Below, piece after piece: positions 226 to 26,808 of a stretch of 33,181 nucleotides of DNA. A program made the position numbers and the translations under genes. The notes beneath the pieces were generated by a model. It was given only the letters and a program-made list of their open reading frames with translations, ran no database searches and was not told the DNA's origin. Positions within the stretch are counted from its first letter, which is position 1. Each line of letters begins with the position of its first letter. This DNA comes from Bacteroidaceae bacterium (GTDB lineage Bacteria > Bacteroidota > Bacteroidia > Bacteroidales > Bacteroidaceae): the NCBI GenBank assembly GCA_024401055.1, contig JAKSLT010000023.1, positions 1-33,181 of the forward strand. Reading direction: 5' to 3'.

Positions 226-1863
226 TCAGAAGCCCGTCCAACATTTGTCCCAGAGGGTGCGGTAGAGGTCGTCCCAACGCATGACGGTGGCGGCGAAGAA
301 GTCGGCCGTATAGTCGGTGGGGGAGACGAGGCCGCGCACTACGAAGTCCTGCTCCCGCTCGGCTTTCTGGAGGAAATAGTCGCGCTGGGGCTCGAGGAGC
401 TTGCGGTATTTCGCCCAGCGCACGGTGGCGAGGCGGTTGGCACGGCGGTAGCGCCAAAGGGCTGTGCCTTCGTCGTAGCCGTGCTGGCCGCAGGTGGCGA
501 GGAGGGCAGGGAGTTTCTTCGTGCCGCTGAAGATGGGGAAACGGGGACTCTGTCCGGGGTTGTCGAGGGCGAGCCATGCCACGCCGCCGATGCTGTCGGG
601 CAGAAAGGCGCGGCACTGGATGACGGTGCTGTATGCGCACCACGGAACGCTGACCGTGCGGACGTTGCGCAGCGTACTGTCACGGAGGACGGCGGCCATG
701 GCGTTGATGTCGTCGGGGCGGAGCCAGGGGTTGAAGGCAGACACGTTCTTGCCGTCGGCAAAGGCGGCGCCCTGCTTGGCGAGGCTGTCGAGGCGGCAGG
801 AGACGGAGAGGGGCGTGCCTTCATAGTAGGAGGCGAGGAGCTCGCTGACGCGGCGGGGCGAGACAAGGCTGTCGGGGCGCACGGAAAGGGGGAGTTCCTC
901 CACGGTGTCGGAGAGGCAGAGGGAAGGGGCGAGCTGCGAGAGGATGAAATGTTCGCGCGTGGAGTAGTTCTTCACCTCGTGGAAGTAATTTTCTCCGGCG
1001 TAGGCGCGCCAGAAACTGAACTCCGACTTGCCGTCCCACAGGCCCAGGCGGCGGGCCACGTCGCGGACGTTGTCGGAGGCCATGTAGTGGTCGGGATCGG
1101 AGAGGTCGAGGCGTCCGATGCGGCAGACGTTGGCACTGACGGCCACGTGGTCGTCGGGGATGCGCACGGCAGCCCATACGCCGCCAATCTTCTTGGGACC
1201 CTCGCCGAGCACCTCGAAGTACCAGGCCTCGTGGGGGTCGGCGATGGTGAGACACTCGCCGGAGTCGCCGTAGCCGTACTCCTTGATGAGCCGGCCCATG
1301 AGGCGTATGGCTTCGCGGGCCGTCGTGCAGCGCTCCATAGCGATGCGCTGGAGTTCCTCAATGCGGAAGAGGCCGTCGGGGTTGCGCAGGGTGTCGCGGC
1401 CGGAGAAGGTGGTCTCGCCCATAGCCAGTTGGTGCTCGTTGAGGCAGGGGTAGGCCGTGTCGAGATAGCGGAAAGTGTGGCGCGCCTGGGGAATCGTGCC
1501 CAGTTCTTTCATGCCGCTGCGGTCGGAAGCCGAGCGCGTGTGCATGCGGCCGTCCCATACGGAGACGACAGTGTCGCGGGGGTAGTCGGCGGCGGGCTGC
1601 ATCTTCATCCATGTGCGGTACCATGAGTCGCAGGTGTGACTTGTGATGACGCTGCCGTCAGTCGTGGCGCGCGAACCGGCGAGAATGCTGGTGCAAGCGT
1701 CGGTGGAAGTGGATAGGGGGCTCTCCCCGGCCAGAGACAGCCTCTCCCCGTCAAAGCTTCCTTCGGAACTTTGCCACCCCTCCCCTGTTAGGGAGGGGGA
1801 AGATGCGGAAAGTGAAAGACAAGGGAAAAAAAGAGATAAGAAAAAGAGTTTGAGGCGAGACAT
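226..1863 (-). CDS. Secreted C69-family dipeptidase (N-terminal nucleophile cysteine), 545 aa
   Basis: This is a predicted exported peptidase of MEROPS family C69 (dipeptidase A/PepD type), which cleaves short peptides with an N-terminal cysteine nucleophile exposed by processing. The first 20 residues form a hydrophobic signal peptide. The catalytic cysteine is Cys57, in the family motif CTSILAGSRATTDGS. Downstream blocks (GETTFSGRDTL, FEVLGEGPKKIGG, DHVAVSANVCRIG) fit the family, and the length is normal for Bacteroidales members. The ATG at 1863 is the only start that includes the signal peptide. Oddly, residues 21-42, between signal peptide and nucleophile, are encoded by a copy of repeat family A (1741-1800), so the removed segment is partly repeat-derived. 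It is the last gene of a minus-strand series and is separated from the upstream gene by two identical copies of the same repeat. The family call is secure; the substrate is unknown. Confidence 0.9.
   Translation of the reverse strand: MSRLKLFFLSLFFPCLSLSASSPSLTGEGWQSSEGSFDGERLSLAGESPLSTSTDACTSILAGSRATTDGSVITSHTCDSWYRTWMKMQPAADYPRDTVVSVWDGRMHTRSASDRSGMKELGTIPQARHTFRYLDTAYPCLNEHQLAMGETTFSGRDTLRNPDGLFRIEELQRIAMERCTTAREAIRLMGRLIKEYGYGDSGECLTIADPHEAWYFEVLGEGPKKIGGVWAAVRIPDDHVAVSANVCRIGRLDLSDPDHYMASDNVRDVARRLGLWDGKSEFSFWRAYAGENYFHEVKNYSTREHFILSQLAPSLCLSDTVEELPLSVRPDSLVSPRRVSELLASYYEGTPLSVSCRLDSLAKQGAAFADGKNVSAFNPWLRPDDINAMAAVLRDSTLRNVRTVSVPWCAYSTVIQCRAFLPDSIGGVAWLALDNPGQSPRFPIFSGTKKLPALLATCGQHGYDEGTALWRYRRANRLATVRWAKYRKLLEPQRDYFLQKAEREQDFVVRGLVSPTDYTADFFAATVMRWDDLYRTLWDKCWTGF
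1741..1800 (-). repeat. Family A dual-hairpin repeat copy A1, inside the C69 peptidase gene
   Basis: The 60 bp match 5191-5250 with only three differences, all in the loop of the first hairpin. Read on the minus strand it has hairpin 1 (CCCCTCCC, loop TAACAG, GGGAGGGG), linker TGGC, hairpin 2 (AAAG-TTCC, loop GAA, GGAA-G-CTTT) and the tail GACGGGGAGAGG. It is in frame with the peptidase and adds no stop codon. Confidence 0.9.
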
Positions 1864-1894
1864 ATTTAATTTATTTGCGTTTCCAATAACAAAA

Positions 1895-2053
1895 AGTATT
1901 CTCCCCCTCCCTAACAGGGGAGGGGTGGCGCGGCACCGCAGGTGGCCGCGACGGGGAGAGGCTTTTAATAATGTGAAGAGTATTCTCCCCCTCCCTAACA
2001 GGGGAGGGGTGGCGCGGCACCGCAGGTGGCCGCGACGGGGAGAGGCTTTTAAT
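1895..2053 (+). repeat. Two identical tandem 75-bp family A copies (A2 1895-1969, A3 1979-2053)
   Basis: The two 75-bp copies are identical and separated by 9 bp. Each has hairpin 1 (CCCCTCCC, loop TAACAG, GGGAGGGG), then hairpin 2 (GCGG-CACC, loop GCA, GGTG-G-CCGC), then GACGGGGAGAGGC and TTTTAAT. The 5' CTCCCC could also pair with the 3' GGGGAG, competing with hairpin 1. A3 supplies the TAA stop of the dehydrogenase gene (2049-2051). Perfect identity suggests recent duplication or gene conversion. Confidence 0.93.
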
Positions 2054-3002
2054 TCACAACATTAAGCTTACCTCCTTCCAGGAACGCCTTGAGGTTGTCG
2101 GCCATGACGCTGAACAGACGGTTGCGGGCGTCGAGGGAAGCCCACGCGATGTGGGGCGTGAGGTAAACGTTGGGGGCGGAAAGGATGGGGTGGTCGGGTG
2201 AAGGAGGCTCCTGGGAGAGCACGTCGGCACAATAGCATCCGAGTTGGCCGCTGCGGAGTGCGTCGGCCACGTCCCGGTCGTTGATGAGCCCGCCGCGGGC
2301 CGCGTTGATGAGCATCAGGCCGGGGCGGACGGTGGCGAGGAGCGCGGCGTTGACGAAGGCGCTGTTCTGGGGCGTGAGCGGGCAGTGGAGAGTGACGACG
2401 TCGGCGGTGCGGAACGCCTCCTCCATCGTCACCTTGCGCACGCCCTGCGGCAGAGCCTCCTGCGGCTTGCTGCTCACGGCGAGAATCTCGGCCTCGAGGG
2501 GCAGGAGGATTTGCGCCACCTTGCTTCCTATGCTGCCGAAGCCGACAATGGCGATGCGGCGCCCGGTGAGTTCGCGGACAGGGCGGTCCCAGAAACAGAA
2601 GTCGGGACTCTGTGCCCACCGCCCCTCGCGGCAGAGGGCGGAATAGTGCTCCACGTGGTTGCAGGCGGCGAGGATGAGGGCCAGGGTGTGCTGCGCCACG
2701 ATGAGGGTGCTGTAGGCCGGCACGTTACATACCGTGATGCCGTGGCGGCGAGCCGCAGCACCGTCCACTACATCGTAGCCCGTGGCGGCGATGAGAATGA
2801 GCCGCAGGCGCGGCAACTGCTGAAATTCGGCCTCGCCGAGGCGCACTTTGTTGAGCATCAGGACGTCGGCGTCTTTAGCGCGCTCTATGACCTCCTCAGG
2901 GCGGGTGCGGGGGTAGGTGGTCAGCGTGCCGAACGCCTCAATGGGCGCAAAGGACATATCGCCCGGGTTCAGCCCGTGGCTGTCGAGGAAAACGATGTTC
3001 AT
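2049..3002 (-). CDS. D-2-hydroxyacid dehydrogenase (glycerate/hydroxypyruvate reductase type), 317 aa
   Basis: This is a predicted cytoplasmic NAD(P)-dependent oxidoreductase of the D-isomer-specific 2-hydroxyacid dehydrogenase family, which interconverts 2-keto acids and D-2-hydroxy acids such as hydroxypyruvate and glycerate. The Rossmann motif GFGSIGSKVAQ is visible. The catalytic set is Arg in NAARGGLI, Glu in LSQEPP and His in TPHIAW. The frame is open to 3131, but the extra 43 residues translate a GC palindrome and simple repeats, so the start is the ATG at 3002 (MNIVFLDSHG), which gives a normal family length. The stop codon lies inside repeat A3. The ROK kinase gene is 106 bp upstream on the same strand, so a shared role in sugar or sugar-acid metabolism is possible but unproven. 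The exact substrate cannot be read from sequence. Confidence 0.9.
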   Translation of the reverse strand: MNIVFLDSHGLNPGDMSFAPIEAFGTLTTYPRTRPEEVIERAKDADVLMLNKVRLGEAEFQQLPRLRLILIAATGYDVVDGAAARRHGITVCNVPAYSTLIVAQHTLALILAACNHVEHYSALCREGRWAQSPDFCFWDRPVRELTGRRIAIVGFGSIGSKVAQILLPLEAEILAVSSKPQEALPQGVRKVTMEEAFRTADVVTLHCPLTPQNSAFVNAALLATVRPGLMLINAARGGLINDRDVADALRSGQLGCYCADVLSQEPPSPDHPILSAPNVYLTPHIAWASLDARNRLFSVMADNLKAFLEGGKLNVVN

Positions 3003-3108
3003 CAAGTGAAAAGTGAAAAATGAAGAGTGAAGAATGAAAAATGAAGGGGGAAGAGGGAGAGTTTCTATCGCTCCAGGTCTTCCCCCTTCGGGAGATAAGA
3101 GGGGGTCC
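3003..3108. repeat. Spacer with simple GAAAAATGAA-type repeats and half a family B palindrome
   Basis: The spacer between the ROK and dehydrogenase genes has a run of degenerate A-rich units ending in TGAA (about 3005-3050). It also carries a GC hairpin at 3078-3107 (CCCCCTTC...GATAAGAGGGGG) that matches one arm of the family B module at 1-150. No promoter of the TAnnTTTG type is evident here. Confidence 0.65.
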
Positions 3109-3987
3109 TTACACGAAAAGTGTGGCGGCACCCATCATTGCGGCGTCGGAAAGGAGGGCGCAGGGCTTGATGTCGGCCTTGAGGCTCACGGAAGCGTAAG
3201 TCTTGTCCATTTCCGGCTGGAAGAGGTGGAGGCTGCGGGCGATGTTGCCGCCGAGAAGGACGGTTGTGGCGCCGAAGTTCTGGATGAGGCGGGCGGTGAA
3301 CTGGGCCAGTTCGCGGCCAAAGGCATGCCATGTGTCCTGAGCGGCAGGATCGGTGGCGTAGCGGTCGGCTACGTCCTTGGCACCCTCGAGAAGTTCGCCG
3401 GTGAGGGTCTGGTAGCGGGCCAGGATGCCGCGGGTGGAGAACCAGTCGTCGGCTATGCTGCCGGCCCAGGGAAGATTCCACACCTCACCGCCGGGAGGCA
3501 CCGTCTCGCCCTCCTCTACGATTTTGCCACCGCTGACAAATCCAGAGCCGAAGCCCGTGCCGATGGCCAGCACGACGACTTTTTCTACGCCGCGGGCAGC
3601 ACCGAAATGGCACTCGCCGAGAGCAAAGGCGCTGGCGTCGTTGACGAAGCGGAACTCCAGGTTCTCACCGCCGGCGATGCGGCTGCGGAGTTCGTCGGCC
3701 ACGTTTAAGCCCTTGATGTGGGGGAGTTTGTGGTCCATCTGGGAGATGCCGTGGACGTAATCGAAGGGACCGGGGAAGTCCATGCCGATGCGGGTGACAG
3801 GCTCGGGAGCCTGGCGGAGGCACTGGGCGATGTTGTCGGCCCATGCGGCGAAGAGTTCGTCGGCAGGGGAGGTGTGGGGAATGTCAGTTTGGATGCGCTG
3901 GCCGATAATCTGGCCGGCGGCGAGGTCGATGACGGCGCTGCACACGTGGCTACCGCCTACGTCAACGCCAATAGCAAGGTTTCTCAT
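3109..3987 (-). CDS. ROK-family sugar kinase, 292 aa
   Basis: This is a cytoplasmic ATP-dependent sugar kinase of the ROK family (glucokinase, fructokinase and N-acetylhexosamine kinases). The N-terminal phosphate-binding motif is IGVDVGGSHVCSAV. The catalytic aspartate is in the FVNDASAFALGE block. The second nucleotide loop is LAIGTGFGSGFVSGG. The zinc-binding CxCGxxGCxE motif typical of many ROK kinases and repressors is not present, and there is no N-terminal DNA-binding domain, so this is a kinase-like member and not a NagC-type repressor. Length is normal for the short subclass. The metallophosphoesterase gene ends 21 bp upstream on the same strand, so co-transcription is likely. The sugar is not determined. 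Confidence 0.88.
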   Translation of the reverse strand: MRNLAIGVDVGGSHVCSAVIDLAAGQIIGQRIQTDIPHTSPADELFAAWADNIAQCLRQAPEPVTRIGMDFPGPFDYVHGISQMDHKLPHIKGLNVADELRSRIAGGENLEFRFVNDASAFALGECHFGAARGVEKVVVLAIGTGFGSGFVSGGKIVEEGETVPPGGEVWNLPWAGSIADDWFSTRGILARYQTLTGELLEGAKDVADRYATDPAAQDTWHAFGRELAQFTARLIQNFGATTVLLGGNIARSLHLFQPEMDKTYASVSLKADIKPCALLSDAAMMGAATLFV

Positions 3988-4008
3988 ATTTTTTTATTTT
4001 AGGTTTGT

Positions 4009-5181: not shown

Positions 5182-5190
5182 AATATAAAG

Positions 5191-5250
5191 CCTCTCCCCG
5201 TCAAAGCTTCCTTCGGAACTTTGCCACCCCTCCCCGGTGTGGGAGGGGGA
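5191..5250 (-). repeat. Family A dual-hairpin repeat copy A4
   Basis: This minus-oriented copy matches A1 except for three bases in the hairpin 1 loop. There it carries ACACCG, as in A5, instead of TAACAG. It therefore combines the hairpin 2 subtype of A1 with the loop of its neighbour A5, which suggests recombination or gene conversion between copies. It lies immediately upstream of the phosphoesterase start and faces away from A5. Confidence 0.9.
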
Positions 5251-5254
5251 AGAT

Positions 5255-5310
5255 ACCCTTGCTTTTTTAGAAAGACCCTTGCTTTTTTAGAAAGTGTCCT
5301 TGCTTTTTAT
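5255..5310 (+). repeat. Tandem 20-bp repeat between repeats A4 and A5
   Basis: Two exact copies of a 20-bp unit (ACCCTTGCTTTTTTAGAAAG) occupy 5255-5274 and 5275-5294, with a partial third copy to about 5310. The array sits in the middle of a divergent pair of family A repeats, in the miaB to phosphoesterase spacer. Confidence 0.85.
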
Positions 5311-5349
5311 ATTAAATATATAATAATGTATAGTAATTCTTGAGAGGTA

Positions 5350-6759
5350 TTATTCCCCTCCCACACCGGGGAGGGGTGGCGCGGCACCGCAGGTGGCCGC
5401 GGCGGGGAGAGGCTCCCCTTGCAACGTTGCGGAGCTGCCGTCCGTTATCCTCACCTTCACGAAGTCGCCGGGGTGGAAACTGACGGTGCTGCCGTCCTCA
5501 CGGGTGACGCTGCGGGGGATGATAACCACCCTGTTCTGCTCCGTGCGTCCGAAGAGCTGTTCGGCCGAGCGCTTGCTGCGGCCCTCCACGAGGATTTCGT
5601 ATTCACGGCCTATGCAGCGGCGGTTGCTTTCCAGCGACAGGCGGTTCTGAAGGGCGATGAGTTCCTCCAGGCGTCGCACTTTCTCGTCCTCGGCGATGTC
5701 GTCGGGGAAATGCTTCGAGGCGTAGGTGCCGGGGCGCTCGGAGTATTTGAACATAAAGGCGGAGTCGTACTGGCATTCCTCCATCAAGGTGAGGCTCTGC
5801 CGGTGGTCGTCGAGCGTTTCTCCGCTGTAGCCCACGAAGATGTCCGTGCTCAATCCGCAGTCGGGCACGATGCGGCGGATGGCGGCCACTCTCTCCAAGT
5901 ACCATTCGCGGGTGTATTTCCTGTTCATGCGTTTCAGCACGTCGTTGCTGCCGCTCTGCACGGGCAGGTGGATATGGCGGCACACGTTGGGCTCCTCGGC
6001 AATGACGCGCAGCGTCTCGTCGCTCATGTCCTTCGGATGCGAGGTGGTGAATCGCACACGCATGCCCACGGCTTCCCGTGCCACGAGGCGCAGTAGGGCG
6101 GGGAAGTCGGTGCCGTCGGGTGTGCGGTAGCTGTTGACGTTCTGCCCGAGGAGCGTCACCTCCTTATAGCCGCGCTCACGCAGGTCGCGCACCTCCTGAA
6201 GGATACTCTCCACGTCGCGGGAGCGTTCCCGTCCGCGGGTGTAGGGCACTATGCAGTAGTGGCAGAAATTGTTGCAGCCGCGCATGATGCTTACGAATCC
6301 CGCGAGGCGGTTGCCGTGTATGCGCGTCGGCACCACGCCGGCGTAGGTCTCCGTGAGCGAGAGCGTCACGTCCATGGCCTTATGGCCCATCTCGGCCTCT
6401 GCGATGAGGCGGGGCAGCGACATATAGGCGTCGGGTCCGGCCACGATGTCGCAGCCACATTCGTTGAGCAATTTCTCCTGCACGCGTTCCGCCATGCAGC
6501 CTATCACGCCGATTATCAGTCCCTTTGGCCCTTCTGCGGCTTTCTGGCGCTTGCGGCGCTCAGCGCAGAGGGCTTCAAGGCGATGCAGGATTTTCTGCTC
6601 GGCATTGTCGCGCACGGAGCAGGTGTTGAGGAAAATGGCGTCGGCCTCTTCCAGCGACTGCACGGGTTCATAGTCCGCCATGCGCATCACTGAAGCCACC
6701 ACTTCCGAGTCGGCCACATTCATCTGGCAGCCGTAGGTTTCGATATAAAGGTGTTTCAT
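5350..6759 (-). CDS. miaB: tRNA-2-methylthio-N6-dimethylallyladenosine synthase MiaB, 469 aa
   Basis: This radical SAM methylthiotransferase adds the 2-methylthio group to i6A37 of tRNA. The N-terminal UPF0004 domain carries the three cluster cysteines Cys11 (YGCQMN), Cys47 (NTCSVRD) and Cys88 (IGCMAER). The radical SAM motif is Cys162-Cys166-Cys169 in GCNNFCHYCIVPYTRGRE. A TRAM RNA-binding domain follows to about residue 450 (FVKVRITDGSSATLQGEPL). The last 18 or so residues (PAAATCGAAPPLPGVGGE) are translated from repeat A5 and the stop codon is just beyond it, so the native terminus has been replaced or extended. The start ATG is confirmed by the YGCQMN spacing and by a consensus promoter just upstream. 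The family assignment is very secure. Confidence 0.97.
   Translation of the reverse strand: MKHLYIETYGCQMNVADSEVVASVMRMADYEPVQSLEEADAIFLNTCSVRDNAEQKILHRLEALCAERRKRQKAAEGPKGLIIGVIGCMAERVQEKLLNECGCDIVAGPDAYMSLPRLIAEAEMGHKAMDVTLSLTETYAGVVPTRIHGNRLAGFVSIMRGCNNFCHYCIVPYTRGRERSRDVESILQEVRDLRERGYKEVTLLGQNVNSYRTPDGTDFPALLRLVAREAVGMRVRFTTSHPKDMSDETLRVIAEEPNVCRHIHLPVQSGSNDVLKRMNRKYTREWYLERVAAIRRIVPDCGLSTDIFVGYSGETLDDHRQSLTLMEECQYDSAFMFKYSERPGTYASKHFPDDIAEDEKVRRLEELIALQNRLSLESNRRCIGREYEILVEGRSKRSAEQLFGRTEQNRVVIIPRSVTREDGSTVSFHPGDFVKVRITDGSSATLQGEPLPAAATCGAAPPLPGVGGE
5355..5413 (+). repeat. Family A dual-hairpin repeat copy A5, forming the 3' end of miaB
   Basis: Hairpin 1 is CCCCTCCC, loop ACACCG, GGGAGGGG. 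Hairpin 2 is identical to that of A2/A3 (GCGG-CACC, loop GCA, GGTG-G-CCGC), followed by GGCGGGGAGAGGC. The copy lies inside the miaB reading frame and encodes its C-terminal tail. Confidence 0.9.
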
Positions 6760-6766
6760 TTCGCTG

Positions 6767-6797: not shown

Positions 6798-6847
6798 ATT
6801 TGCGACTAAAATAGCTCTAATAGTCCGTAGAATAGAAAAAATAGTCC

Positions 6848-6855: not shown

Positions 6856-6859
6856 CACC

Positions 6860-11920: not shown

Positions 11921-14170
11921 ATGCGCCACTCCTTATATATATTACTGGCAGCTTTGCTTTCCCTTCCCCTGTATGCCCAGACGGACTACACGGGCAAGGT
12001 GAAAAACACTGCGGCAGCCTGGGGCGGCACGGGCACCTGCGTGGCCGGCTCCGTGAGTTGCGTGGAGTATTTCAGCTCCAGCCATTTCTATCAGAACAGT
12101 TTCAGCCAGACCGTCAGCGGCCTGCCCGTCGGCGTGTATGAGGCCGAGGTATATTTCAATGCCTCCTGCACCGGCAGCGCAGGGACTCTCTGCGACGACG
12201 GCACCACGGGCCGCACCCACCTCTTCCTCAACGATGCCGAGGTGGACATCCCCATCTACAACCTCAGCGCAAAGACGCTCTCCTCTCCCACGCTCTACAC
12301 CGTCAGCGGCATCCACGTCAGCGACGGCACCCTCCGCATGGGAGCCCGCAACGACCGCGAGGGCGCAAACTGGCACATCATCCGCGTGAAGTCCCTCCGC
12401 TATCTCGGCACCGACGTCCGCAGCCTCTACGACGCCCAGTTCCCCCTCATACGCCAGGCTCGCCAGGCACTGGACGCCAGCACGTGCCCCAATTATCAGG
12501 AAATGCTCCGCGGAGCCATCGATGCCAGCCTCGTCGCCTCGGCCTACGACAGCCGGGAGCACCTCCAGACGCTCTACGACAACATTTCCGCCGCCATCGC
12601 CGAGAGCGAGGCTTTCGAAGCCGGCAAGACAGCGGCACTGAAGGACATGACGATGCGACTGGAAACCTTCCAGAGCGTATGGAACAATGGAGCACTCACC
12701 GCTTCCGAGGATTTATGGCTCTCCTTCCTACCTCCCGTGGAGAAGGTGTGCCTGGCCAAGGACAGCGCGTGCGACCTCGATGACATGAAGACGGCATGCC
12801 AGTCGCTTGCCGACGCCCTGGGCGCCGCACCCGTCACCTACACCATCGTCTTCACCGGCGACACCGAAGGCCTGAAGAACCTTAAACTCAAGTATAAGGG
12901 CTACAACTACACCGCCACCCTCGAGACCGGCGACCTCGACCCCTCTGCCCTCACCGCCACCGACGTGAGCGGCTACGACTACACCATCGACGTCACGGGC
13001 ACCACCATCACTGTGACCTACACCAAGCGCTGCACAGTGCGCCGCAGCCAGCTCTACACCGTCTCCTGCCCCCGCGGCGCATGGAAGTACGCCGACGGCA
13101 TGGCAGTGGCCGGAAGCCCCAACGCCGGCGACGAGGCACAGCTCTTCGCCTTCTACGACTTCAACGGCCACACCTACCTCTGGAGCCAGGGAGCCGGGCA
13201 GTTCCTCAACAACGGGGGCAAGGCCGTGCCCTTCACCGAGGCCAGCCCCGTCACCTGGGCCGAGGAAGAAGGCGGCACGAAAGCACGCTTCTGGTTCACC
13301 GATGCCGCCGACAAGAACATCAACATCGACGGCTACAGCCACATCTTCATCGACGCATGGGACTACGCCGACGACGGCAACAAGATGACGCTCAACGCCG
13401 TGGAGGGATTCGACGCCGTCCTCGTGCAAGCGCTCATCGCCTCCCAGCTCGGCGAAATCATCATCACCGATGCCCAGCCCTATTCTGCCGCAGCGGCTTC
13501 ATACTACGACCGCGTGACCTACAAGCGCAACTTCACCAGTCGCGACTGGGAAGCTCTCTACGTGCCCTTCACCATGACCAGCGATGAGTGGAGCGACAAC
13601 TACGACATCGCCGAGGTCAGCAAATTCATCGAATACGACGACGATGCCGACGGCACCCCCGACCGCATCTACCTCCTCGTGCAGCGCAAGACGTCCGGCA
13701 GCACCAAGGCCAACCATCCCTACCTCATCCGCGCCAAGCGCACCGGCACCCGCAGCCTCATCCTGTCCGGCCGCACCCTGGAAGCTTCCAAGACCACCGG
13801 CACCAGCCTTCGCAGCGAGAAATACCTCTACACCCTCATGGGCTCCTACTCCACCGTCGGCAGCCTCTCTTCCAACGGCTACTACACCCTCTCCGGCGGC
13901 AGCCTGAGCCGCTCCTCAAGCAGCAGCGCCACGCTCTCGCCCCAGCGCTGGTACATGGCCCTCACCTCCCCCACGGGCGGCACGGTCTCTGCCAAGGTTC
14001 AGAAAATCCCCGTCTGGATAGAGGGCGAGGACTACGTCACCGGCCTCGGCACTCCCGCCGCCCTTTCCGTGCCGTCCGCCTCAGCCTTCGACCTCACCGG
14101 CCGCCGCCTCACACAACCCGCCACCTTCCGCGGCGTCAGCATAACGAACGGAAGGAAAGTCATCAAATAA
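11921..14170 (+). CDS. Large secreted protein with Bacteroidales C-terminal tail, 749 aa
   Basis: The signal peptide MRHSLYILLAALLSLPLYAQ is cleaved after AQ; the ATG at 11921 is chosen because everything upstream in frame is repeat. The mature N-terminal ~130 residues (DYTGKVKNTAAAWGG ... GANWHIIRVKSLRYLG) look like a jelly-roll, carbohydrate-binding type module. Residues ~160-280 are helical and resemble FIVAR-like linkers. A beta domain follows (TYTIVFTGDTEGLKNLKLKY), then a region containing the DWEALYVPFTM block common in Prevotella surface proteins. It ends FDLTGRRL...VSITNGRKVIK, the short tail seen on many exported Bacteroidales proteins. No catalytic motif is recognised. It may bind polysaccharide or act at the cell surface with the phosphatase upstream; that is inference. 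Confidence 0.82.
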   Translation: MRHSLYILLAALLSLPLYAQTDYTGKVKNTAAAWGGTGTCVAGSVSCVEYFSSSHFYQNSFSQTVSGLPVGVYEAEVYFNASCTGSAGTLCDDGTTGRTHLFLNDAEVDIPIYNLSAKTLSSPTLYTVSGIHVSDGTLRMGARNDREGANWHIIRVKSLRYLGTDVRSLYDAQFPLIRQARQALDASTCPNYQEMLRGAIDASLVASAYDSREHLQTLYDNISAAIAESEAFEAGKTAALKDMTMRLETFQSVWNNGALTASEDLWLSFLPPVEKVCLAKDSACDLDDMKTACQSLADALGAAPVTYTIVFTGDTEGLKNLKLKYKGYNYTATLETGDLDPSALTATDVSGYDYTIDVTGTTITVTYTKRCTVRRSQLYTVSCPRGAWKYADGMAVAGSPNAGDEAQLFAFYDFNGHTYLWSQGAGQFLNNGGKAVPFTEASPVTWAEEEGGTKARFWFTDAADKNINIDGYSHIFIDAWDYADDGNKMTLNAVEGFDAVLVQALIASQLGEIIITDAQPYSAAAASYYDRVTYKRNFTSRDWEALYVPFTMTSDEWSDNYDIAEVSKFIEYDDDADGTPDRIYLLVQRKTSGSTKANHPYLIRAKRTGTRSLILSGRTLEASKTTGTSLRSEKYLYTLMGSYSTVGSLSSNGYYTLSGGSLSRSSSSSATLSPQRWYMALTSPTGGTVSAKVQKIPVWIEGEDYVTGLGTPAALSVPSASAFDLTGRRLTQPATFRGVSITNGRKVIK

Positions 14171-14192
14171 GGCATCCTTCCGTCCTCCTGCC

Positions 14193-14321
14193 CTCCCCCC
14201 TCGGGGGAGTTGGAGGGGGGCGTTTCTATTTCCCGCCCGCAAGGCGGCCTTATTTCTCGGCGCCAGCCGACAGAAAAACTACCCCTCTCAAACAAACGCC
14301 TTCCTACCCGCCCCAACCCTC
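14193..14321 (+). repeat. GC-rich palindrome modules beside MITE-like element E1
   Basis: CCCCCCTCGGGGGAGTTGGAG (from 14197) matches the family B end at 32325-32345. CCCGCCCGCAAGGCGG (14233-14248) and TTATTTCTCGGCG...AGCCGAC match 32425-32465. The same order of modules precedes both MITE-like elements, so the homologous block is longer than the elements themselves. Confidence 0.75.
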
Positions 14322-14930
14322 CAAAATTTTTGATAAATTTTTTCCTAATTCATGTAGCGCCGCAGGCAACCCTTTTGTCAAAATTTTTTACAATTTATGT
14401 GCTCGTACAGCGCGATATTCGCGAGCGAAGTGTAAGTCGATTGGCTACACGCGATTCTCGCGAAAGTTGGCAAAGCACTGACACATAAATCATTACCAAA
14501 GTGTCGGCTAAAATTTCCTCCCAATTTCCGCAACTAAATGCCGACTAAGCGCGGACAATGCTTGCACCCGGCATGAAATTCCGCTCTTTTAATTTTCACT
14601 AGTTCCCTTTTAATTTTCACTTGTTCCCTTTCGCTGGAAATTAAAAGGGAACTAGTTCGAATTAAAAGAGGACTAATTCGAATTAAATGGGAAGAAGTTT
14701 GAATTAAAGGAGGACTAGTGGCCAGAGGATGCGGGTGTTTTGCGGCGCGGGGTGGAAAAAGTTGGCGCAAGTCTTGAAAATGCCATTCCGAAATGGCAAA
14801 ACCCCTGTCGCGAACGGCGAAAAGTCCCCAAAATTTAGTCAAAAATTTTGTCAAAATATTTTACAGTTTCGGGAAAGGGATATCGCCTGCGGCGCTACAT
14901 GAATTAGGAATAAATTTATCATAAATTATG
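14322..14930 (+). mobile_element. MITE-like element E1 with 46-bp terminal inverted repeats, no transposase
   Basis: Left 14322-14367 and right 14885-14930 are inverted repeats with about 43 of 46 positions matching; the inner 26 bp (14342-14367 and 14885-14910) match perfectly. The interior has no convincing gene. It holds GC-poor 21-bp unit arrays in opposed orientation, and a near-identical direct repeat (TTTTGTCAAAATTTTTTACA at about 14373 and its variant at 14843). A second element, E2, is at 32516-33181. Differences between the copies change most codons of every small frame, so it is non-coding. The features fit a non-autonomous transposable element, though flanking target duplications are not seen. 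Confidence 0.75.
14587..14722. repeat. Opposed arrays of 21-bp units in E1 (2 inverted + 4 direct)
   Basis: The left array has two 21-bp units (TTTTAATTTTCACTAGTTCCC and a one-base variant) at 14587-14607 and 14608-14628. After a 10-bp centre (TTTCGCTGGA) the right array has four 21-bp units starting AATTAAA at 14639, 14660, 14681 and 14702. The right units are reverse complements of the left, so the block can fold into a long hairpin. There are no unique spacers between units. Confidence 0.88.
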
Positions 14931-17018: not shown

Positions 17019-17027
17019 GTAAAGACC

Positions 17028-17155
17028 TCCACTGACTCCCCCAAAGGGGGAGAGAAAGCCCCCCTCAATCCCCCCTTTGGGGGGAAGCTTCAAAGCGATT
17101 TCTTTATCGCTCGCTGAACTTCCCCCCAAAAGGGAGACTGATGGGGGGCCTTCAT
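17028..17155 (+). repeat. Cluster of GC palindromes downstream of rbr
   Basis: The stems seen are CTCCCCC-AAA-GGGGGAG (17036-17052), CCCCCC-TTT-GGGGGG (17070-17084), AGCGAT...ATCGCT (about 17094-17111), and a final CCCCCC...GGGGGG pair (17122-17149). These belong to the dispersed GC palindrome type. The first stem could help end the rbr transcript, but there is no T-run. Confidence 0.75.
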
Positions 17156-19761: not shown

Positions 19762-19789
19762 CTCTATTAACACAAATAACTTCCCTATT

Positions 19790-20317: not shown

Positions 20318-20355
20318 GCGTATCCGCACAGCCCTTACGGCTGAGATTAACAATA

Positions 20356-20389
20356 CGGCGGGCACATCCTTCAGTGGATGTGCCCGCCG
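20356..20389. terminator. Strong bidirectional hairpin between converging operons
   Basis: A perfect 14-bp stem (20356-20369 with 20376-20389; GGCGGGCACATCC / GGATGTGCCCGCC) encloses the 6-nt loop TTCAGT. It sits between the Spy-like gene and rmuC, which converge here, with AT-rich sequence on both sides. It probably ends both transcripts. Confidence 0.88.
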
Positions 20390-20422
20390 CTGCTATTTTA
20401 TGGAGAGCTTCAGGAAAGGGTC

Positions 20423-21772: not shown

Positions 21773-21855
21773 CTTGTAGGGGATTGGGCGCGCAAGGCTC
21801 GCGCCTTGCTGAACTGAAAGAAATTAAAAAAAATTTATTTCAGAAATTATATTTT
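21773..21855 (-). other. MATE-rmuC spacer with two hairpins
   Basis: One hairpin is GCAAGGC-TCGC-GCCTTGC (21792-21809). A second, imperfect AT-rich one pairs CTGAAA near 21814 with TTTCAG near 21838. No TAnnTTTG promoter is evident. Confidence 0.45.
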
Positions 21856-23232
21856 TCACTTTTCATTTTCTCGGTGGAATCGGAGGGAAAGCGTGCGGGG
21901 CCACTTGACCCAGAGATAGAGTGTGCGGACAACGAGGTGGGCGAGGTAGGCGGCATAGACGGCATGGATACCGCAGGGAAGTCGGAGGGCCACGTAGGTC
22001 AGTACGAAGGCAAGGGCGGCGAGAAACATGCAGTCGCGCACCTGGCGGCCGGCGGTGGCGCCGATATAGATACCGTCCCACATGAAGGCGGCGCTGCTGA
22101 CGAGGGGCATGGCGACGAGCCAGAGGAGAAGGGGGTGAGCGTCGGCGCGCACGGCGGTGTCGGTGGTGAAGAGGTTGACCATACCCTGCCCGCAGAGGGC
22201 GTAGAGAAGCGTGAAGACGAGACCCACGGCAAGGCACCAGGCCATGAGTTGGCGCACGGCACGCTGCGTCTGAAGGCGGTCGCCGGCTCCGATGAAGCGG
22301 CCCACGAGGGCCTCGCCGGCATAGGCGAAACCGTCCACGAAGTAACTGAAGAGCATAAAGAGCTGCATCATCACGGCGCCCACGGCCAGGGCGGCATCGC
22401 CATAGGCAGAGGTGAGGGCCGTGAAGCCTACATAGACCACCATGAAGCCCAGCGAGCGGAGCATAAGGTTGCCGCCGAAGCCGAGCATACGGCGGAGGCG
22501 CTGCCAGTGGAGGTTGCCGCGCAGATGGATATGGGGAAAGACGGTGCGGCGATAGTGGACGGTGAGGAGCACGAGGGCCACGAGTAGGCCGAGCCACTGG
22601 GCGATGAGCGTGCCCCACGCCACACCGATAGGGCCGAGGGGCGTGCAGACGGCGAGGTAGTAAGAAAAGAACATGTTGGCCACGTTCACGATGATATCGA
22701 CGGCCATGGGGCTCACCGTGTTCTGCGAGCCGATGAACCAGCCCTTGAGGGCCATGAGGGAGAGCGTGGCGGGAGCGGCCCAGATTCGCACGTGATAGTA
22801 GTCGCGGGCGAAGGAGGCCACGGTGGATGTGCAGGGGGTAAGGGCGAGGGCGATTTCCACGACGAGCCAGCCCGTGAGGAGCAGGAGAAGTGCGCTGGAG
22901 AGTGCCAGAAAGAGGCTTTGCGTGAGGAGTGCGGCGCGGTCGGCCGTATCGCCTCGGCCATAAGCCTGGGCCGTGAGGCCTCCGGTGCCCACACGAAGGA
23001 AGCCGAAGTTCCAGTAGAGCAGCGAGAAGAGCATCGCCCCTATGGCAATGCCGCCCATAGCGGAGGCATCGGCAATGTGGCCGGCGATGGCGATATCTAC
23101 CATACCGACAAGGGGCACGGTGATGTTGGCCAGAATGCTTGGGACGGCCAGGCGGAGGATGGGGAGACGGAGACCCTCTAAATGGAGACCCCCTCGCTCC
23201 CCCTTAAAGGGGGATGTCTTGATGGAGAACAA
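21856..23232 (-). CDS. MATE-family efflux transporter (DinF-like), 458 aa, with repeat-altered N-terminus
   Basis: This is a twelve-helix cation-coupled drug/organic cation exporter. Family blocks include LRLAVPSILANITVPLVGMVDIAIAGH, GTGGLTAQAYGRGD, PMAVDIIVNVANMFFSYYLAV and VDGFAYAGEALVGRFIGAGD. Normal homologues begin a few residues before the LRLAVP block. Here the DNA just ahead is a family C palindrome (23185-23217), which is translated as TSPFKGERGGL. No ATG exists in frame before the first helix. The only usable start is a TTG (23232) directly abutting the TAA of the upstream gene, so translation may depend on coupling or reinitiation. The transporter itself shows no frameshift. The family is certain; substrates are unknown. 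Confidence 0.88.
   Translation of the reverse strand: MFSIKTSPFKGERGGLHLEGLRLPILRLAVPSILANITVPLVGMVDIAIAGHIADASAMGGIAIGAMLFSLLYWNFGFLRVGTGGLTAQAYGRGDTADRAALLTQSLFLALSSALLLLLTGWLVVEIALALTPCTSTVASFARDYYHVRIWAAPATLSLMALKGWFIGSQNTVSPMAVDIIVNVANMFFSYYLAVCTPLGPIGVAWGTLIAQWLGLLVALVLLTVHYRRTVFPHIHLRGNLHWQRLRRMLGFGGNLMLRSLGFMVVYVGFTALTSAYGDAALAVGAVMMQLFMLFSYFVDGFAYAGEALVGRFIGAGDRLQTQRAVRQLMAWCLAVGLVFTLLYALCGQGMVNLFTTDTAVRADAHPLLLWLVAMPLVSSAAFMWDGIYIGATAGRQVRDCMFLAALAFVLTYVALRLPCGIHAVYAAYLAHLVVRTLYLWVKWPRTLSLRFHRENEK
23183..23217 (-). repeat. Family C palindrome in the MATE N-terminus
   Basis: The core CCCCCTTAAAGGGGG (23199-23213) with flank GGAGACCCCCTCGCT is the inverse orientation of the copies at 10456 and 23348. 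It is in frame with the transporter. Confidence 0.8.
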
Positions 23233-24381
23233 TTAGCGAATGAATTTGTGGCCGTTATGAATGAAGAGGCCGCGGAGACCTCCTCGCTCCCCCTTAGTAG
23301 TTTTGAGGGCACGGCCTTGCAAGTCATACATATTCCCTTGCTGGAAGCCCCCTTTAAGGGGGGCGGGGGTCTCTATTCCCTCGGGGTTGCCCTGGAGGAC
23401 GGGATTCTGGAGATATTCGGAGAAGAGGCCGGTCTCTCTGAACTTGCCCTGCGAGATGAGTATGCCGTTCTGGCCGGTATAGGTGTCGGTGACGGGATTG
23501 TAGTCGAAGACGAGGTCGGCAAGTGCGACATCCTCATCGCCCATGTAGTAGGTGGCGCCATAGAGATACATGTCGTTGGAGCCGCCGTAGTTCACGATGA
23601 AATGCTCCTGGGGGAACACGATACGCGAGCCGTTGCGATGGCCCTTGACGCAGGTATTGGTCTGAATGCACACGGAGCAGAAACCATCCATATAGACATC
23701 GTCGCCGACGAAAGCGAGGCGGGCGGGATGGGTGAGAGGTCCCGTGCGGAAACTGTTGGCGGAGAGCGTGTAGGGAAGGAACACGGCTCCATCGGGCACC
23801 ACTACGGGCACCTTGGGGCCGTCAGGCGTGACAGGCTCGTCGGCGGGGTCAGCGGGTTCCCAGGCCTTGGACGGCGTAAGGGTGATGGAGGCATAGCGGT
23901 TGTAGGGCATGTACTTGTTGGCCGACGTAGAGAAATCGTCGTAATAGTATTCGCCGAAGCCGTAGCCCTCTGCCGTGGAGAGCACGCCCGTGGAGAGGTT
24001 GCGCTGGAGCGTGAGGTCGCAGTGCTTGGCGGCATCACCGCGGTAGCCGAAGAGATAGATGTCGAGGCCGAAGTCCTGACCCAGATATTGTTCCTGGGCA
24101 AAGGTGATGGAGGTCTTCTCCTTGTTGGCCTTGCCCTTTACCCAAGCGTCGGGGAAAGAGTCGCAAAGGCCCTGGATATAGACGTAACCCTCGGCGTTGC
24201 CCACGGTGAGGGTGCGGGAGAAGGACGTCTGACTGCCGTAGAAGTCCACGGAAGTTATCTGTGCCTTCATCGTCGTGGTGACGATGGACTTCGGCGGCGT
24301 GACAAGGGTCTGTGCCTGCGTGGCGACAATGGTGCAGAGAGCCAGGATGATTATTGAGAAAGAGATACGGAGGTGCTTCAT
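23233..24381 (-). CDS. Secreted protein with internal duplication and Bacteroidales C-terminal tail, 382 aa
   Basis: The signal peptide ends TQAQ. Two copies of a beta domain are visible. The first (~35-150) has YVYIQGLC...WVKGKANKEKTSITFAQEQYLG...DIYLFG. The second (~200-320) has DVYMDGFC...CVKGHRNGSRIVFPQEHFIV...DMYLYG. A Pro-rich linker (EPADPADEPVTPDGPKVPV) joins them. The end, MYDLQGRAL...GLFIHNGHKFIR, is the short tail common on exported proteins of this order. The tail region contains two in-frame repeat pieces: APLKGGF from a family C palindrome, and KGERGGL, also seen in the MATE N-terminus. Function is not recognised; surface or periplasmic location is likely. Confidence 0.8.
   Translation of the reverse strand: MKHLRISFSIIILALCTIVATQAQTLVTPPKSIVTTTMKAQITSVDFYGSQTSFSRTLTVGNAEGYVYIQGLCDSFPDAWVKGKANKEKTSITFAQEQYLGQDFGLDIYLFGYRGDAAKHCDLTLQRNLSTGVLSTAEGYGFGEYYYDDFSTSANKYMPYNRYASITLTPSKAWEPADPADEPVTPDGPKVPVVVPDGAVFLPYTLSANSFRTGPLTHPARLAFVGDDVYMDGFCSVCIQTNTCVKGHRNGSRIVFPQEHFIVNYGGSNDMYLYGATYYMGDEDVALADLVFDYNPVTDTYTGQNGILISQGKFRETGLFSEYLQNPVLQGNPEGIETPAPLKGGFQQGNMYDLQGRALKTTKGERGGLRGLFIHNGHKFIR
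23279..23374. repeat. Two family C pieces within the C-terminal coding region of the secreted protein
   Basis: A full palindrome CCCCCTTTAAGGGGG is at 23348-23362 with flank GCGGGGGTCTCT. A partial piece at 23279-23295 (CCTCCTCGCTCCCCCTTA) matches the flank of the copy at 23189-23206. Both are in frame and lie on either side of the conserved MYDLQGRAL block. Confidence 0.75.
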
Positions 24382-24414
24382 TTCAACTAATAACTTTTAA
24401 CTATTAACTTTTAA

Positions 24415-25548
24415 CTAAAGAAGACATATGCCTACCCACACCCAGTGGGCCACGATGCCGGCCACGATACCGCCGACGGTGTGGGCACCGATGGCTTTGG
24501 AGGTGAGTTGGCGGTAGCCGAGGGAGTCGAGCATGGCGGTGTGGGTGCTCAAGTAGCCGCTCCAGCACATACCTATGGCGGTGAACACGGCAATGGCGTT
24601 ATCATTTATCCAGCCCTGCTCAGCAAAGTTGGGCACGAGGCCGAGGGCGGCACCCACGGCGCCGAGAGCGGTGATGGGGAAGGCTATCTGGTGCGGGTCG
24701 TTGAAGCCGAAAAGCCACTCGAAGACCACCGAGCACTTGTCGGCGAGCCAGGGGAGGAGTTCCACGCCCTGATAAGCGGCACCGGTGAACTCGCCCGTGG
24801 CCTTGTCGGCGCCGAAGGTGAGAATCATCACGGTGGTGCTGATGACGAGCACGCCGGGGATGATGGCCATGCCGATTTCCACACCGGCCTTGCCGCCGTC
24901 GAGGATGGCGTCGAGGATACGCATGAAGAGCGACTTGGTCTCGGGGTTCTTCGCGGCGGCCTGCTGTTCCTCGGTCCACACCTCCACGGCCATCTCCTCC
25001 TTAAATTCGGGGTAGGCCTTGCAAGTGAAGCGCTGCATGAGGCGTGTGCTGACGATGCAGCCGCAGAAGGCACCGAAGAGGCCCACGAAGGGCGCGGTGG
25101 TGTAGCCCTGCCCCACCATGAAGACGATGACGAGCAAGCCCATACCGAAGGCGGTACCGAAGTTCGTCAGCGAGATGAGTTGGTACTTGCGGAAGAAACG
25201 TGCGAACTTCTTGTCGTGGGCCAGCGTGATGATGGCGGGGTTGTCGCTCAAGAAGGTGAGTACGGCGCCGAGGGAGGCTGTGCCGGGCAGGTTGAAGAGG
25301 GGCTTCATCAGCGGGCGCAAGATTTTCTCAAAGAGAGCCACCACGCCGAACTTGCTGAAAATCTTGCCCAGCGCTCCCGTGATGACGCAGATGGCCATGA
25401 GGAAGAAGCAAGTGTTGATGAGCAAGTCGAAGGCGGTCTTCATGATTGTGTTCATCATGTTGGCCACGCCCATCACATGGCCGAGATAGCCGAAGATGAG
25501 AAAGATAATAATGAGGCAGGGGATGCCTTCAAAAGTTTTCTTATTCAT
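24415..25548 (-). CDS. Gate-domain (nucleoside-recognition/SpmA-SpmB-like) membrane protein, 377 aa
   Basis: This is a multi-pass inner-membrane protein with about nine hydrophobic segments. The central block LTFLSDNPAIITLAHDKKFARFF and the paired segments before and after it resemble the Gate (nucleoside-recognition) domain family, which includes the spore maturation proteins SpmA/SpmB and YjiH-like proteins. Bacteroidales do not sporulate, so those names do not describe its role here. A cytoplasmic insert at ~180-210 (EFKEEMAVEVWTEEQQAAAK) separates the two halves. Transport or sensing of a small solute is possible, but no substrate can be assigned. It lies 33 bp upstream of the secreted protein gene, across AT-rich simple repeats. 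Confidence 0.75.
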   Translation of the reverse strand: MNKKTFEGIPCLIIIFLIFGYLGHVMGVANMMNTIMKTAFDLLINTCFFLMAICVITGALGKIFSKFGVVALFEKILRPLMKPLFNLPGTASLGAVLTFLSDNPAIITLAHDKKFARFFRKYQLISLTNFGTAFGMGLLVIVFMVGQGYTTAPFVGLFGAFCGCIVSTRLMQRFTCKAYPEFKEEMAVEVWTEEQQAAAKNPETKSLFMRILDAILDGGKAGVEIGMAIIPGVLVISTTVMILTFGADKATGEFTGAAYQGVELLPWLADKCSVVFEWLFGFNDPHQIAFPITALGAVGAALGLVPNFAEQGWINDNAIAVFTAIGMCWSGYLSTHTAMLDSLGYRQLTSKAIGAHTVGGIVAGIVAHWVWVGICLL

Positions 25549-25622
25549 AATTAATAAAGACCCCCAACCCCCTTAAACGGGGCTTTCTGTCAGGGTGAAA
25601 GTTTTATTTTACTTTTTATTTT
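25549..25622 (-). repeat. Family C palindrome and AT-rich simple repeats between two genes
   Basis: At 25558-25592 an inverse-orientation family C copy reads GACCCCCAACCCCCTTAAAC and then GGGGCTTTCTG. It is followed by TTTTACTTTTTATTTTTTAC-type simple repeats to 25637. No promoter consensus was found. Confidence 0.65.
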
Positions 25623-26681
25623 TTACTTTTTACTTATTAACTTCTTCAAGTGCAGCAGGTCGGCGCGGAAGGTGAGGCCTATGTTGAGGGTGCTCTCCTT
25701 GTCCTGCAGCACACCGGCAGGGTTGGTGTTCTGTCCCCACGTATGGAAATAGGAGGCGTGGAGGCGCAGGTCGCGGCGACCCTTGAGGGGGAAGTATTCC
25801 ACGCCGCCGCCCAGGTGGTGCTGCTCCGTGCCGGCGAAGACACAGTAGTCGCTGCCGTTTTCTTTGTTGCGGTCCCAGCCATACTTGACGAAGGCGTTGA
25901 GTTCCCTAATGGGCTGCACGTGGAGTTCCGTCGTGAGCGTGAAGTCGCCGAAGAAATTGGCGTCGTAGCCGCCGGCGTAGCGGTTTGTCCAGTCCACGAT
26001 GAAGCGGCCGCGGCTGAAATCAAAACGGTTGCCCAAGGCGATGTAGTTTATCCAGTGACCGGGCGTGGCCTCAAAGAGATTAGTGGAGTAGAGGGCAGTG
26101 AAGGGCCCGTGCTTGCCGTCCCACTTCACGCCGAAGCCGTACATATCGTCGGCGTTGGCCCTGAACGGACTCTGCGTGGCCTGCACCTGCAGGCGGTCGC
26201 TCTCCGTGAGGTTGTACGCCACGCTGGCACCGAACTGATAACAGCCGATATTGTTGCAGTATTCCGAGTACTGGTACACGTCAATGGGCGCGTAGTCATA
26301 CTCAAAACCGCCGACGCCCACCACTTGCTTACCGGCCGACATTTCCCACTTCTTAATATTATAAGTAAGGTACAGCCAGTCGGTGGCATTGAAGAAGCCG
26401 CTCTTCAATTCCTTACTGAAGCGCTGGCGGTAGGCATAACACCAGTGTTTGCCGAGTTCTCCTTTCAGGACGAAGTTGAGATATTGTCCGCGGAAACCGC
26501 TCTCGCTGGCGCGCTTGGTGCCGTCCAGCCAGTCGCGCTGCCAGTCCACGCGGGCCTCCACCTGGGCCGTGGTCACCCAGTTGCCCAGGGGCTTGTCGGT
26601 GCCGGTACTGTCGGCCTCCTGACCGAAGGTCGGCGCAGCGAGGACTATGAAAAGGAAAAGAGAGAGAAACTTTCTGTTCAT
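25623..26681 (-). CDS. Outer-membrane porin-like beta-barrel protein, 352 aa
   Basis: The signal peptide MNRKFLSLFLFIVLAAPTFGQ fixes the start at the ATG at 26681; the frame runs open to 26744 but only through repeat A6 and spacer. The mature protein is built of alternating strands with aromatic girdle residues: FRGQYLNFVLKGELGKHWCY, YRQRFSKEL, DWLYLTYNIKKWEMSAGKQ, FTALYSTNLF and LNAFVKYGWDRN. It ends in ADLLHLKKLISKK. This is typical of phosphate-selective porin O/P-like proteins (OprO/OprP relatives) common in Bacteroidales. The preferred substrate is unknown. It lies upstream of the Gate-domain gene on the same strand. Confidence 0.8.
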   Translation of the reverse strand: MNRKFLSLFLFIVLAAPTFGQEADSTGTDKPLGNWVTTAQVEARVDWQRDWLDGTKRASESGFRGQYLNFVLKGELGKHWCYAYRQRFSKELKSGFFNATDWLYLTYNIKKWEMSAGKQVVGVGGFEYDYAPIDVYQYSEYCNNIGCYQFGASVAYNLTESDRLQVQATQSPFRANADDMYGFGVKWDGKHGPFTALYSTNLFEATPGHWINYIALGNRFDFSRGRFIVDWTNRYAGGYDANFFGDFTLTTELHVQPIRELNAFVKYGWDRNKENGSDYCVFAGTEQHHLGGGVEYFPLKGRRDLRLHASYFHTWGQNTNPAGVLQDKESTLNIGLTFRADLLHLKKLISKK

Positions 26682-26747
26682 TGAGGTTATAATTGATTTT
26701 TCGATGATTCGATATTTCAAGGTTGCGACATCTCCTGCCCGCATTTT

Positions 26748-26808
26748 TCCCCTCCCTAACAGGGGAGGGGTGGCAGGGTGCCGTAGGCAGCCCTGACGGG
26801 GAGAGGCC
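26748..26808 (+). repeat. Family A dual-hairpin repeat copy A6 (third stem subtype)
   Basis: Hairpin 1 is CCCCTCCC, loop TAACAG, GGGAGGGG, as in A2. Hairpin 2 is AGGG-TGCC, loop GTA, GGCA-G-CCCT (26775-26794), followed by TGACGGGGAGAGGC. All eight pairs of hairpin 2 are formed by bases that differ from the other subtypes. It lies between ettA and the porin gene. Confidence 0.9.

Follow-up and report, generated by a model that had tools for sequence, protein, structure and literature searches.

Dual-hairpin repeats of a Bacteroidaceae genome bracket DUF559 nuclease genes and are probably the ends of a REPIN-like mobile element

Repeat copies in the window

The window, a 33,181-nt stretch of a Bacteroidaceae bacterium (assembly GCA_024401055.1, contig JAKSLT010000023.1), carries six copies of a repeat consisting of two successive hairpins joined by a TGGC linker and followed by a tagged tail. 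We find that inverted pairs of this repeat bracket genes of the DUF559 family, and we consider it probable that the six copies are ends of a mobile element resembling REPINs, the inverted dimers of repetitive extragenic palindromic (REP) sequences, with short dimers as its non-autonomous copies and an autonomous form that encodes DUF559.

All six copies reported in the original prediction, which was made from the letters of the window, are present at or within a few bases of where it placed them (Table 1), and its description of hairpin 1, the linker and the tail is borne out; the tail is GACGGGGAGAGG in five of the six copies and GGCGGGGAGAGG in the copy at 5350. It did not mention that many copies are halves of inverted dimers, two of which (1738-1964 and 5188-5415) lie in the window. 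The end at 26744 has no inverted partner within 1 kb among the copies listed. Window copies were scored with R1, a covariance model built from 30 copies. Their stable hairpins adjoin gene ends and, by comparison of open reading frames (ORFs), the copy at 5350 overlaps the 3′ end of a MiaB-like ORF.

Table 1. Repeat copies and other features of the window.
Feature	Position	Strand	Hairpin-2 arms	Evidence
Element end, left half of inverted dimer 1738-1964	1738..1803	-	AAAG/CTTT + TTCC/GGAA	R1 93.2 bits; alignment
Element end, right half of inverted dimer 1738-1964	1899..1964	+	GCGG/CCGC + CACC/GGTG	R1 94.0 bits; structure, pair counts
Hairpin 1 of the 1899 copy	1904-1925			
Linker TGGC of the 1899 copy	1926-1929			
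Hairpin 2 of the 1899 copy	1930-1949			
Tagged tail GACGGGGAGAGG of the 1899 copy	1950-1961			
Tandem duplicate of 1899-1964, 84 nt apart	1983..2048	+		R1 94.0 bits; direct repeat D4
Element end, left half of second inverted dimer 5188-5415	5188..5253	-		R1 88.8 bits
Element end, right half of dimer 5188-5415	5350..5415	+		R1 85.1 bits
MiaB-like radical SAM/TRAM gene	5350..6759	-		Pfam
Single element end	26744..26809	+	AGGG/CCCT + TGCC/GGCA	R1 94.3 bits
Second C-rich palindrome family	44-129, 3076-3106, 14190-14220, 17022-17148, 32265-32350			

Copy number and arrangement in inverted dimers

Genome-wide collection by pattern and by covariance model, as the original prediction had proposed, yielded 37 exact-pattern matches in the window's genome (0 for a reversed-pattern control) and at least 149 R1 matches at E ≤ 1e-4 (150 candidates scored). 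Two genomes of the same genus contain 39 (G039) and 7 (G009) R1 copies. At E ≤ 1e-3, R1 matches 7 of 150 genomes, the window's own counted, and four of the seven (G054, G073, G075, G077) have weak matches only. This distribution, patchy even within the genus, is as expected of a mobile repeat; the window's genome is ~83% and G039 68% complete.

A census of neighbors less than 1 kb apart among the 136 copies listed for the window's genome revealed 37 pairs in −/+ order, 4 in +/− order and 8 on the same strand. The −/+ pairs account for 74 of the 136 copies and have hairpin 1 inside and the CGTC tag outside. Their spacers fall into three ranges (36-41 nt, n = 18; 66-226 nt, n = 16; 472-521 nt, n = 3), and the shortest gives an inverted dimer of ~170 nt. 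Two inverted palindromes with a short spacer and many copies is the organization of a REPIN. The outer end has the consensus GACGGGG-AG(A/G)GG-CT(G/T) across 56 copies, and conservation falls off beyond it. The layout from the outside inward is AGCCTCTCCCC-GTC-[hairpin 2]-GCCA-[hairpin 1]-(often GATAC), followed by the mirror image. The copies are element ends, not whole units.

Fold and covariation of hairpin 2

Pairs were counted over 30 copies (29 distinct), 29 of which came from a pattern search in which linker and tail, but not the stem, were held constant. Changes on both sides occur at 6 of the 8 pairs of hairpin 2, and 98.3% of cells are paired. Hairpin 1 is nearly invariant in these copies and, because it scarcely varies, is uninformative about covariation either way. 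The covariation score, the paired share and the count of both-side-changed cells of hairpin 2 lie above all 500 shuffles. Two other counts do not stand out in this way: 33/500 shuffles have at least as many pairs with both sides changed, and 499/500 at least as many pair types. Slid versions of the alignment are lower on every covariation measure.

A larger set of 61 fetched copies, selected by pattern for a fixed linker and tag and restricted to a 20-nt hairpin 2 with shorter variants left out, contains 31 distinct hairpin-2 sequences. Their 248 cells comprise 242 Watson-Crick pairs, 2 G-U pairs and 4 unpaired positions. Seven outer and nine inner arm pairs (three of the inner ones with mismatches) occur in 16 combinations, and the first pair is A-T in 16 and G-C in 15 of the distinct stems. 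The bulged G is present in 61/61 copies and the GNA loop in 57/61. In 56 strong R1 matches not chosen by tag, GACG is found in 54 and TGGC in 52.

The claim that pairing, loop and bulge are kept while the arm sequence drifts thus holds genome-wide. Other parts of the original prediction need revision. The triloop, described as always GNA, departs from this form in four of the 61 copies; the three hairpin-2 subtypes were a small-sample effect; and the reading of subtypes as separate lineages with different partners does not agree with arms that combine freely and with dimer ends that usually differ in hairpin 2 (identical at both ends in 3/21 dimers).

The original prediction left the folded molecule as either RNA or single-stranded DNA. 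A folded single strand is likely, and the pairing favors DNA, because G-U pairs are nearly absent and because of the folding scores: with DNA parameters four window copies adopt the two-hairpin form with z of −3.3 to −3.9, and RNA folding of slightly longer stretches in the same orientation gives z of −1.1 to −2.7 with alternative pairing in some, two ranges that are not strictly comparable since the stretches differ in length. RNA families normally tolerate G-U pairs, and DNA mini-hairpins in which a C-G pair closes a GNA loop are unusually stable. The position of stable hairpins beside gene ends would suit repeats selected as RNA, be it as terminators, mRNA-end stabilizers or a small RNA. 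Against such a role stand the 2/248 G-U cells, the inverted dimers, a copy that lies in frame within a gene (below), the link to a single nuclease gene and an Rfam search of the window that returned no family at gathering threshold. We consider selection as RNA very improbable; the repeats may have a secondary effect on transcripts.

Covariation would be silent on function if the paired arm changes arose from template switching inside the palindromes. The changes are indeed nearly all concerted (54 both-side-changed cells, 3 one-side-changed and 5 unpaired in the 30-copy counts), and they could reflect either template switching or selection, which are not separable here. Template switching leaves the constancy of the bulged G and the GNA loop, and the link to DUF559, unexplained; as an account of the covariation we find it doubtful.

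Insertion sites

Past insertion is shown by an empty site. A 172-nt dimer lies in frame, with no stop codon, inside a peptidase-like gene of the window's genome (L082, 2085-2972, on contig G000:C1), presumably of the DPP4/S9 type. The corresponding gene of G009, in the same genus, is uninterrupted and lacks the 55-residue in-frame insert: the two halves align to it at 89-90% identity, with query residues 122-176 missing between them. Because the insertion falls in a variable loop, its exact border cannot be placed. In the window, residues after ~453 of the 469-residue MiaB-like ORF are encoded by the element, and 10 of 11 related loci align only to residues 448-455 and one to residue 460. Synteny of the MiaB-like gene and a phosphoesterase gave no clean empty site at the window dimer, the relatives' loci being without a phosphoesterase match.

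No target-site duplication was found in 14 dimers (mean flank match 0.43, compared with 0.60 for shuffled flanks; one right end was used twice in this set). Copies occupy unrelated places, with no common flanking target past the end box. Tandem duplication also happens, as between the copies at 1899 and 1983.

DUF559 genes between the element ends

Inside each of the three widest dimers of the window's genome (L079, L080, L081; spacers 472-521 nt) is a single ORF of 129-145 aa, matching Pfam DUF559 (PF04480) with E from 1e-30 to 1e-34. The genome has six DUF559 genes, five of which lie between inverted R1 matches; the chance of this is ~3e-21 at uniform repeat density and 2e-4 at 50-fold local density. 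For the sixth (L101, contig G000:C42), visual inspection shows inverted palindromes of a different C-rich family on the two sides. With the single DUF559 genes of G039 and of G009, both bracketed by R1 matches, the total is 7 of 8, the G009 matches being weak (E 1.5e-4 and 5.9e-4). DUF559 is the only gene found inside element ends in the places examined. The association of DUF559 with the ends is an observed one: the gene lies between inverted ends that are also dispersed without it, the arrangement that defines the proposed element.

By profile, DUF559 matches the solved protein 3hrl (E 3.5e-31) and, weakly, the homing endonuclease 3r3p (E 5e-5). DUF559 alignments A4 and A9 have invariant E, D and ExDG..H columns. 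The profile match and the conserved acidic and His residues together place the enclosed protein among the predicted EDxHD/Vsr-like nucleases. PADLOC matches that might have pointed to a defense system are weak and partial, and this reading was set aside.

The 3r3p match invites comparison with the Vsr-fold (EDxHD) homing endonucleases, and one DUF559 gene is classed under EDxHD homing endonucleases in PMC9403480. On such a homing-like route DUF559 would cut element-free sites and the element would be copied in by recombination. Homing needs homologous flanks, however, whereas the copies lie in unrelated places without a shared flanking target beyond the end box, and high-copy non-autonomous hairpin dimers are not expected from it. 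We regard this route as distinctly improbable.

DUF559 loci in other genomes

The search for terminal repeats was extended to 80 loci, nearly all from Bacteroidota, found by scanning the genome collection with eight DUF559 proteins; two were too short, leaving 78. An inverted repeat was scored when a match of at least 20 joined the two 350-nt flanks, and windows further out served as the control. Inverted repeats are present in 60/78 of these loci and in 1/73 outer windows. Reversed flanks gave 0/78, same-strand flanks 4/78 and flanks taken from different loci, a control that shares the repeat family, 33/391. A further 27 loci of relatives (15/27, compared with 0/23 outer windows) and 18 plasmid-collection loci taken from 52 records (9/18, compared with 0/18) bring the pooled count to 84 of 123 loci with terminal inverted repeats and 1 of 114 control windows (82/120 and 1/111 with three near-duplicate loci removed). 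The pooled p of ~2e-31 is not to be taken literally, as the loci are related and kinship among genomes makes p-values overstate independence.

Repeat-flanked DUF559 loci span Bacteroidota, Alphaproteobacteria, Cyanobacteria, Deinococcota and others. Plasmid positives are from Azospirillum lipoferum, Sinorhizobium meliloti, two Deinococcus, Pseudanabaena, Sphingomonas, Sphingobium, Novosphingobium and Qipengyuania. Negative or borderline loci are from E. coli, Geobacillus, Photobacterium, Sinorhizobium sp. K101, Azospirillum brasilense, Methylobacterium and Picosynechococcus; Neisseria gonorrhoeae scored 16, and Synechocystis scored 12.5 with similar boxes visible on both sides. A strain-level empty site would call for another record sharing the flanks of the S. 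meliloti or Sphingomonas DUF559 locus, and the matches listed contain none (for S. meliloti, the best 40 of 139 records, with four covering 80% of the query).

The arms of Bacteroidota loci largely follow one plan: between an outer box (e.g. GCCTCACCCCC) and hairpin 1 lie either 2-4 nt or a hairpin 2 whose sequence is free. In the window element, a CGTC-hairpin-CCA module occupies this middle position. Novosphingobium and L228 have the reverse layout, with hairpin 1 outside and the tag inside. The same arm lies on both sides of the Novosphingobium DUF559 gene by the inverted-repeat test, and on one flank of that gene two R1 matches form an inverted pair of ends (E 4e-4 and 1.5e-3).

At the S. 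meliloti pSymB locus (L189), arms of ~100 nt flank DUF559, each side being a whole inverted hairpin pair. On this replicon 31 places match some part of the 1151-nt query, and the arms recur in other Sinorhizobium and Rhizobium replicons, where the matches listed are mostly to the arms.

Co-variation of nuclease and repeat

DUF559 identity and arm similarity are correlated across 60 loci (rank r 0.24, 0/2000 permutations as high), and remain so in the 56 loci left after removal of near-duplicates and rows with stops (r 0.25, 0/1000 as high). Of seven pairs of paralogues from the same assembly, six have unremarkable arm similarity and one has high similarity. Judged from these comparisons, repeat type appears to follow nuclease clade in part.

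R2, a general model built from DUF559-flanking arms, matches 18 of 150 genomes. DUF559 is found in 12 of these 18 and in 28 of the other 132 (p 1.7e-4), a test that is partly circular because R2 came from those arms; in G040 both R2 matches are the flanking ends themselves. R2 matches bracket a DUF559 gene in G075, G007, G040 and G112, and in G075 and G007 close inverted R2 pairs also occur away from DUF559.

Y1 genes of the same genome

The original prediction had named a Y1/RAYT-like transposase as one candidate partner of the repeats. The window's genome has four Y1 (PF01797) genes (L031-L034), and none of the four is bracketed by the element; at the ~83% completeness of this genome, we did not retain Y1 as the partner. 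Each is flanked by its own, different inverted palindromes with arms of 28-62 nt, unrelated dual-hairpin ends, and an R1 scan of the four loci found nothing at their borders, its sole match (13.2 bits) lying 1 kb away from one of the genes.

These counts bear on whether DUF559 might be a passenger, or a repair or defense nuclease, caught in a palindromic element that another enzyme such as Y1 moves. Four Y1 genes are at hand in the genome, and REP elements elsewhere are linked to Y1 enzymes (PMC3733652, PMC6006769). Yet the Y1 genes keep palindromes of their own, G039 has 39 repeat copies and, at 68% completeness, no Y1 match above the family cut-off, and DUF559 alone is found inside the ends in the places examined, across phyla and with ends that co-vary with it. 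A passenger role is, in our judgment, unlikely.

Relation to known repeats and nucleases

In design and behavior the element resembles REPIN/RAYT systems, and the proposal of REP sequences as the nearest analogue was right as to function. Common to both are short palindromes in inverted dimers, high copy number and one cognate gene bracketed by the same palindromes; there is no target duplication here. Two defining features of REP/RAYT are absent. The bracketed gene encodes a PD-(D/E)XK DUF559 nuclease and not a Y1 HUH enzyme, and the GTAG/GTGG tetranucleotide 5′ of the stem, given as a required motif in PMC6006769, is replaced by GACG (CGTC on the other strand) in 54/56 strong R1 matches not chosen by tag. 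Each end also has two hairpins in a row.

CGTC-tagged REPs, reported in Bacteroidetes (PMC3733652), share more of the sequence. They share with the hairpin-2 module the CGTC directly before an 8-bp stem, the CCA after it and the inverted dimers: tag, 8-9 bp stem and CCA tail all have counterparts here (8 pairs; GACG 54/56, TGGC 52/56). They differ in a loop of 4-5 nt where we find a triloop and a bulge, in first two pairs fixed as A-T, and in lacking the extra hairpin 1 and outer box. That study states that no transposase gene was found beside CGTC repeats, which seem to be without a dedicated transposase; it dealt with transposases, and a search for DUF559 in it gave no occurrence. In the present genome the CGTC module is part of ends that enclose DUF559. 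As a separate observation, one palindrome at the Y1 locus L031 reads CGTC-stem-loop on one strand, a CGTC-like repeat beside a Y1 gene and a link that was not found in PMC3733652.

The RIME repeats of Rhizobium and Sinorhizobium share the bipartite palindromes, and the pSymB arms of L189 are perhaps RIME copies. DDE-type miniature inverted-repeat transposable elements (MITEs) are likewise short non-autonomous elements with inverted ends and an autonomous parent with one gene; the present element differs in its hairpin ends, its enclosed DUF559 gene and the absence of a target-site duplication in the 14 dimers, and classification as a DDE MITE was rejected. The Vsr/EDxHD (I-Bth0305I-type) endonucleases are related to DUF559 in sequence. 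Known members repair mismatches or drive intron homing, and we know of none that is the partner of dispersed hairpin repeats. No description of a DUF559-repeat link was found in the literature, as searched among the titles and beginnings of abstracts listed, with most subscription papers out of reach.

Other repeats in the window

A second C-rich palindrome family, built of a box and a CCCCC-loop-GGGGG hairpin, is present partly as inverted pairs (D10/D11), and palindromes of this type flank, by eye, the DUF559 gene at L101 (G000:C42). A direct repeat (14227-14917 / 32421-33132) consists of blocks of 300, 216 and 102 nt that are 91-95% identical and contains tandem units of TTTTAATTTTCACTTGTTCCC. 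ORFs beside it (13588-14481 and 32287-32682) have no Pfam match.

A proposed model of DUF559-mediated mobility

We propose that the basic unit would be the ~170-nt inverted dimer and that the autonomous form would carry the same ends around a gene for a 127-145 aa DUF559 (Vsr-like, PD-(D/E)XK) nuclease. The short dimers of the window would be non-autonomous copies spread in trans by borrowing DUF559. The ends may take the form of hairpins within single-stranded or cruciform DNA, where DUF559 would recognize the fold (two hairpins, GNA loop and bulged G) and the flanking boxes, not the arm sequence, and may cut beside the folded ends to move the unit. We infer this mobilization from the association described above.

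Several points weigh against the proposal. No transposition has been observed, and we know of no DUF559 protein that transposes. Paired arm changes could also be obtained by templated correction within palindromes, without selection. Among the 136 copies listed, 62 have no listed inverted partner within 1 kb; 39 of the 123 scored DUF559 genes have no inverted repeat at threshold; and 6 of the 18 R2 genomes (G035, G054, G067, G136, G137, G141) have no DUF559 Pfam match. A profile search of these six gave only a DUF559 fragment in G067 and a marginal 26-residue match in G136. G067 has 30 R2 copies, and its truncated gene (L256, contig G067:C4) is likely a dying autonomous element; R2 matches one flank of this gene, and a similar palindrome is visible by eye at the opposite flank. 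PMC12907096 links a DUF559 protein of Caulobacter to DNA damage responses and interprets it as an endonuclease of mismatch repair.

Bacterial genomes commonly contain short palindromic repeats, the best studied of which are linked to Y1 transposases. DUF559 is the likely partner that spreads the repeats described here, and similar ones in other bacteria. A wider proposal, which we hold to have an even chance of being correct, is that DUF559 (Vsr-like) nucleases may be the enzymes of a large, unrecognized class of hairpin-ended mobile elements extending from Bacteroidota to Alphaproteobacteria, Cyanobacteria and Deinococcota. They would mobilize single-stranded or cruciform ends by recognizing a shape made up of paired arms, GNA loop and bulged G, whatever the arm sequence. 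Many orphan C-rich palindromic repeats, some of the CGTC type without a known enzyme among them, would have their missing source in these nucleases. If so, DUF559 would be an enzyme that appears to read the shape of a hairpin while ignoring the sequence of its arms. If DUF559 does move these repeats, a widespread family of unknown function would gain a role, and an orphan class of repeats would gain its enzyme.

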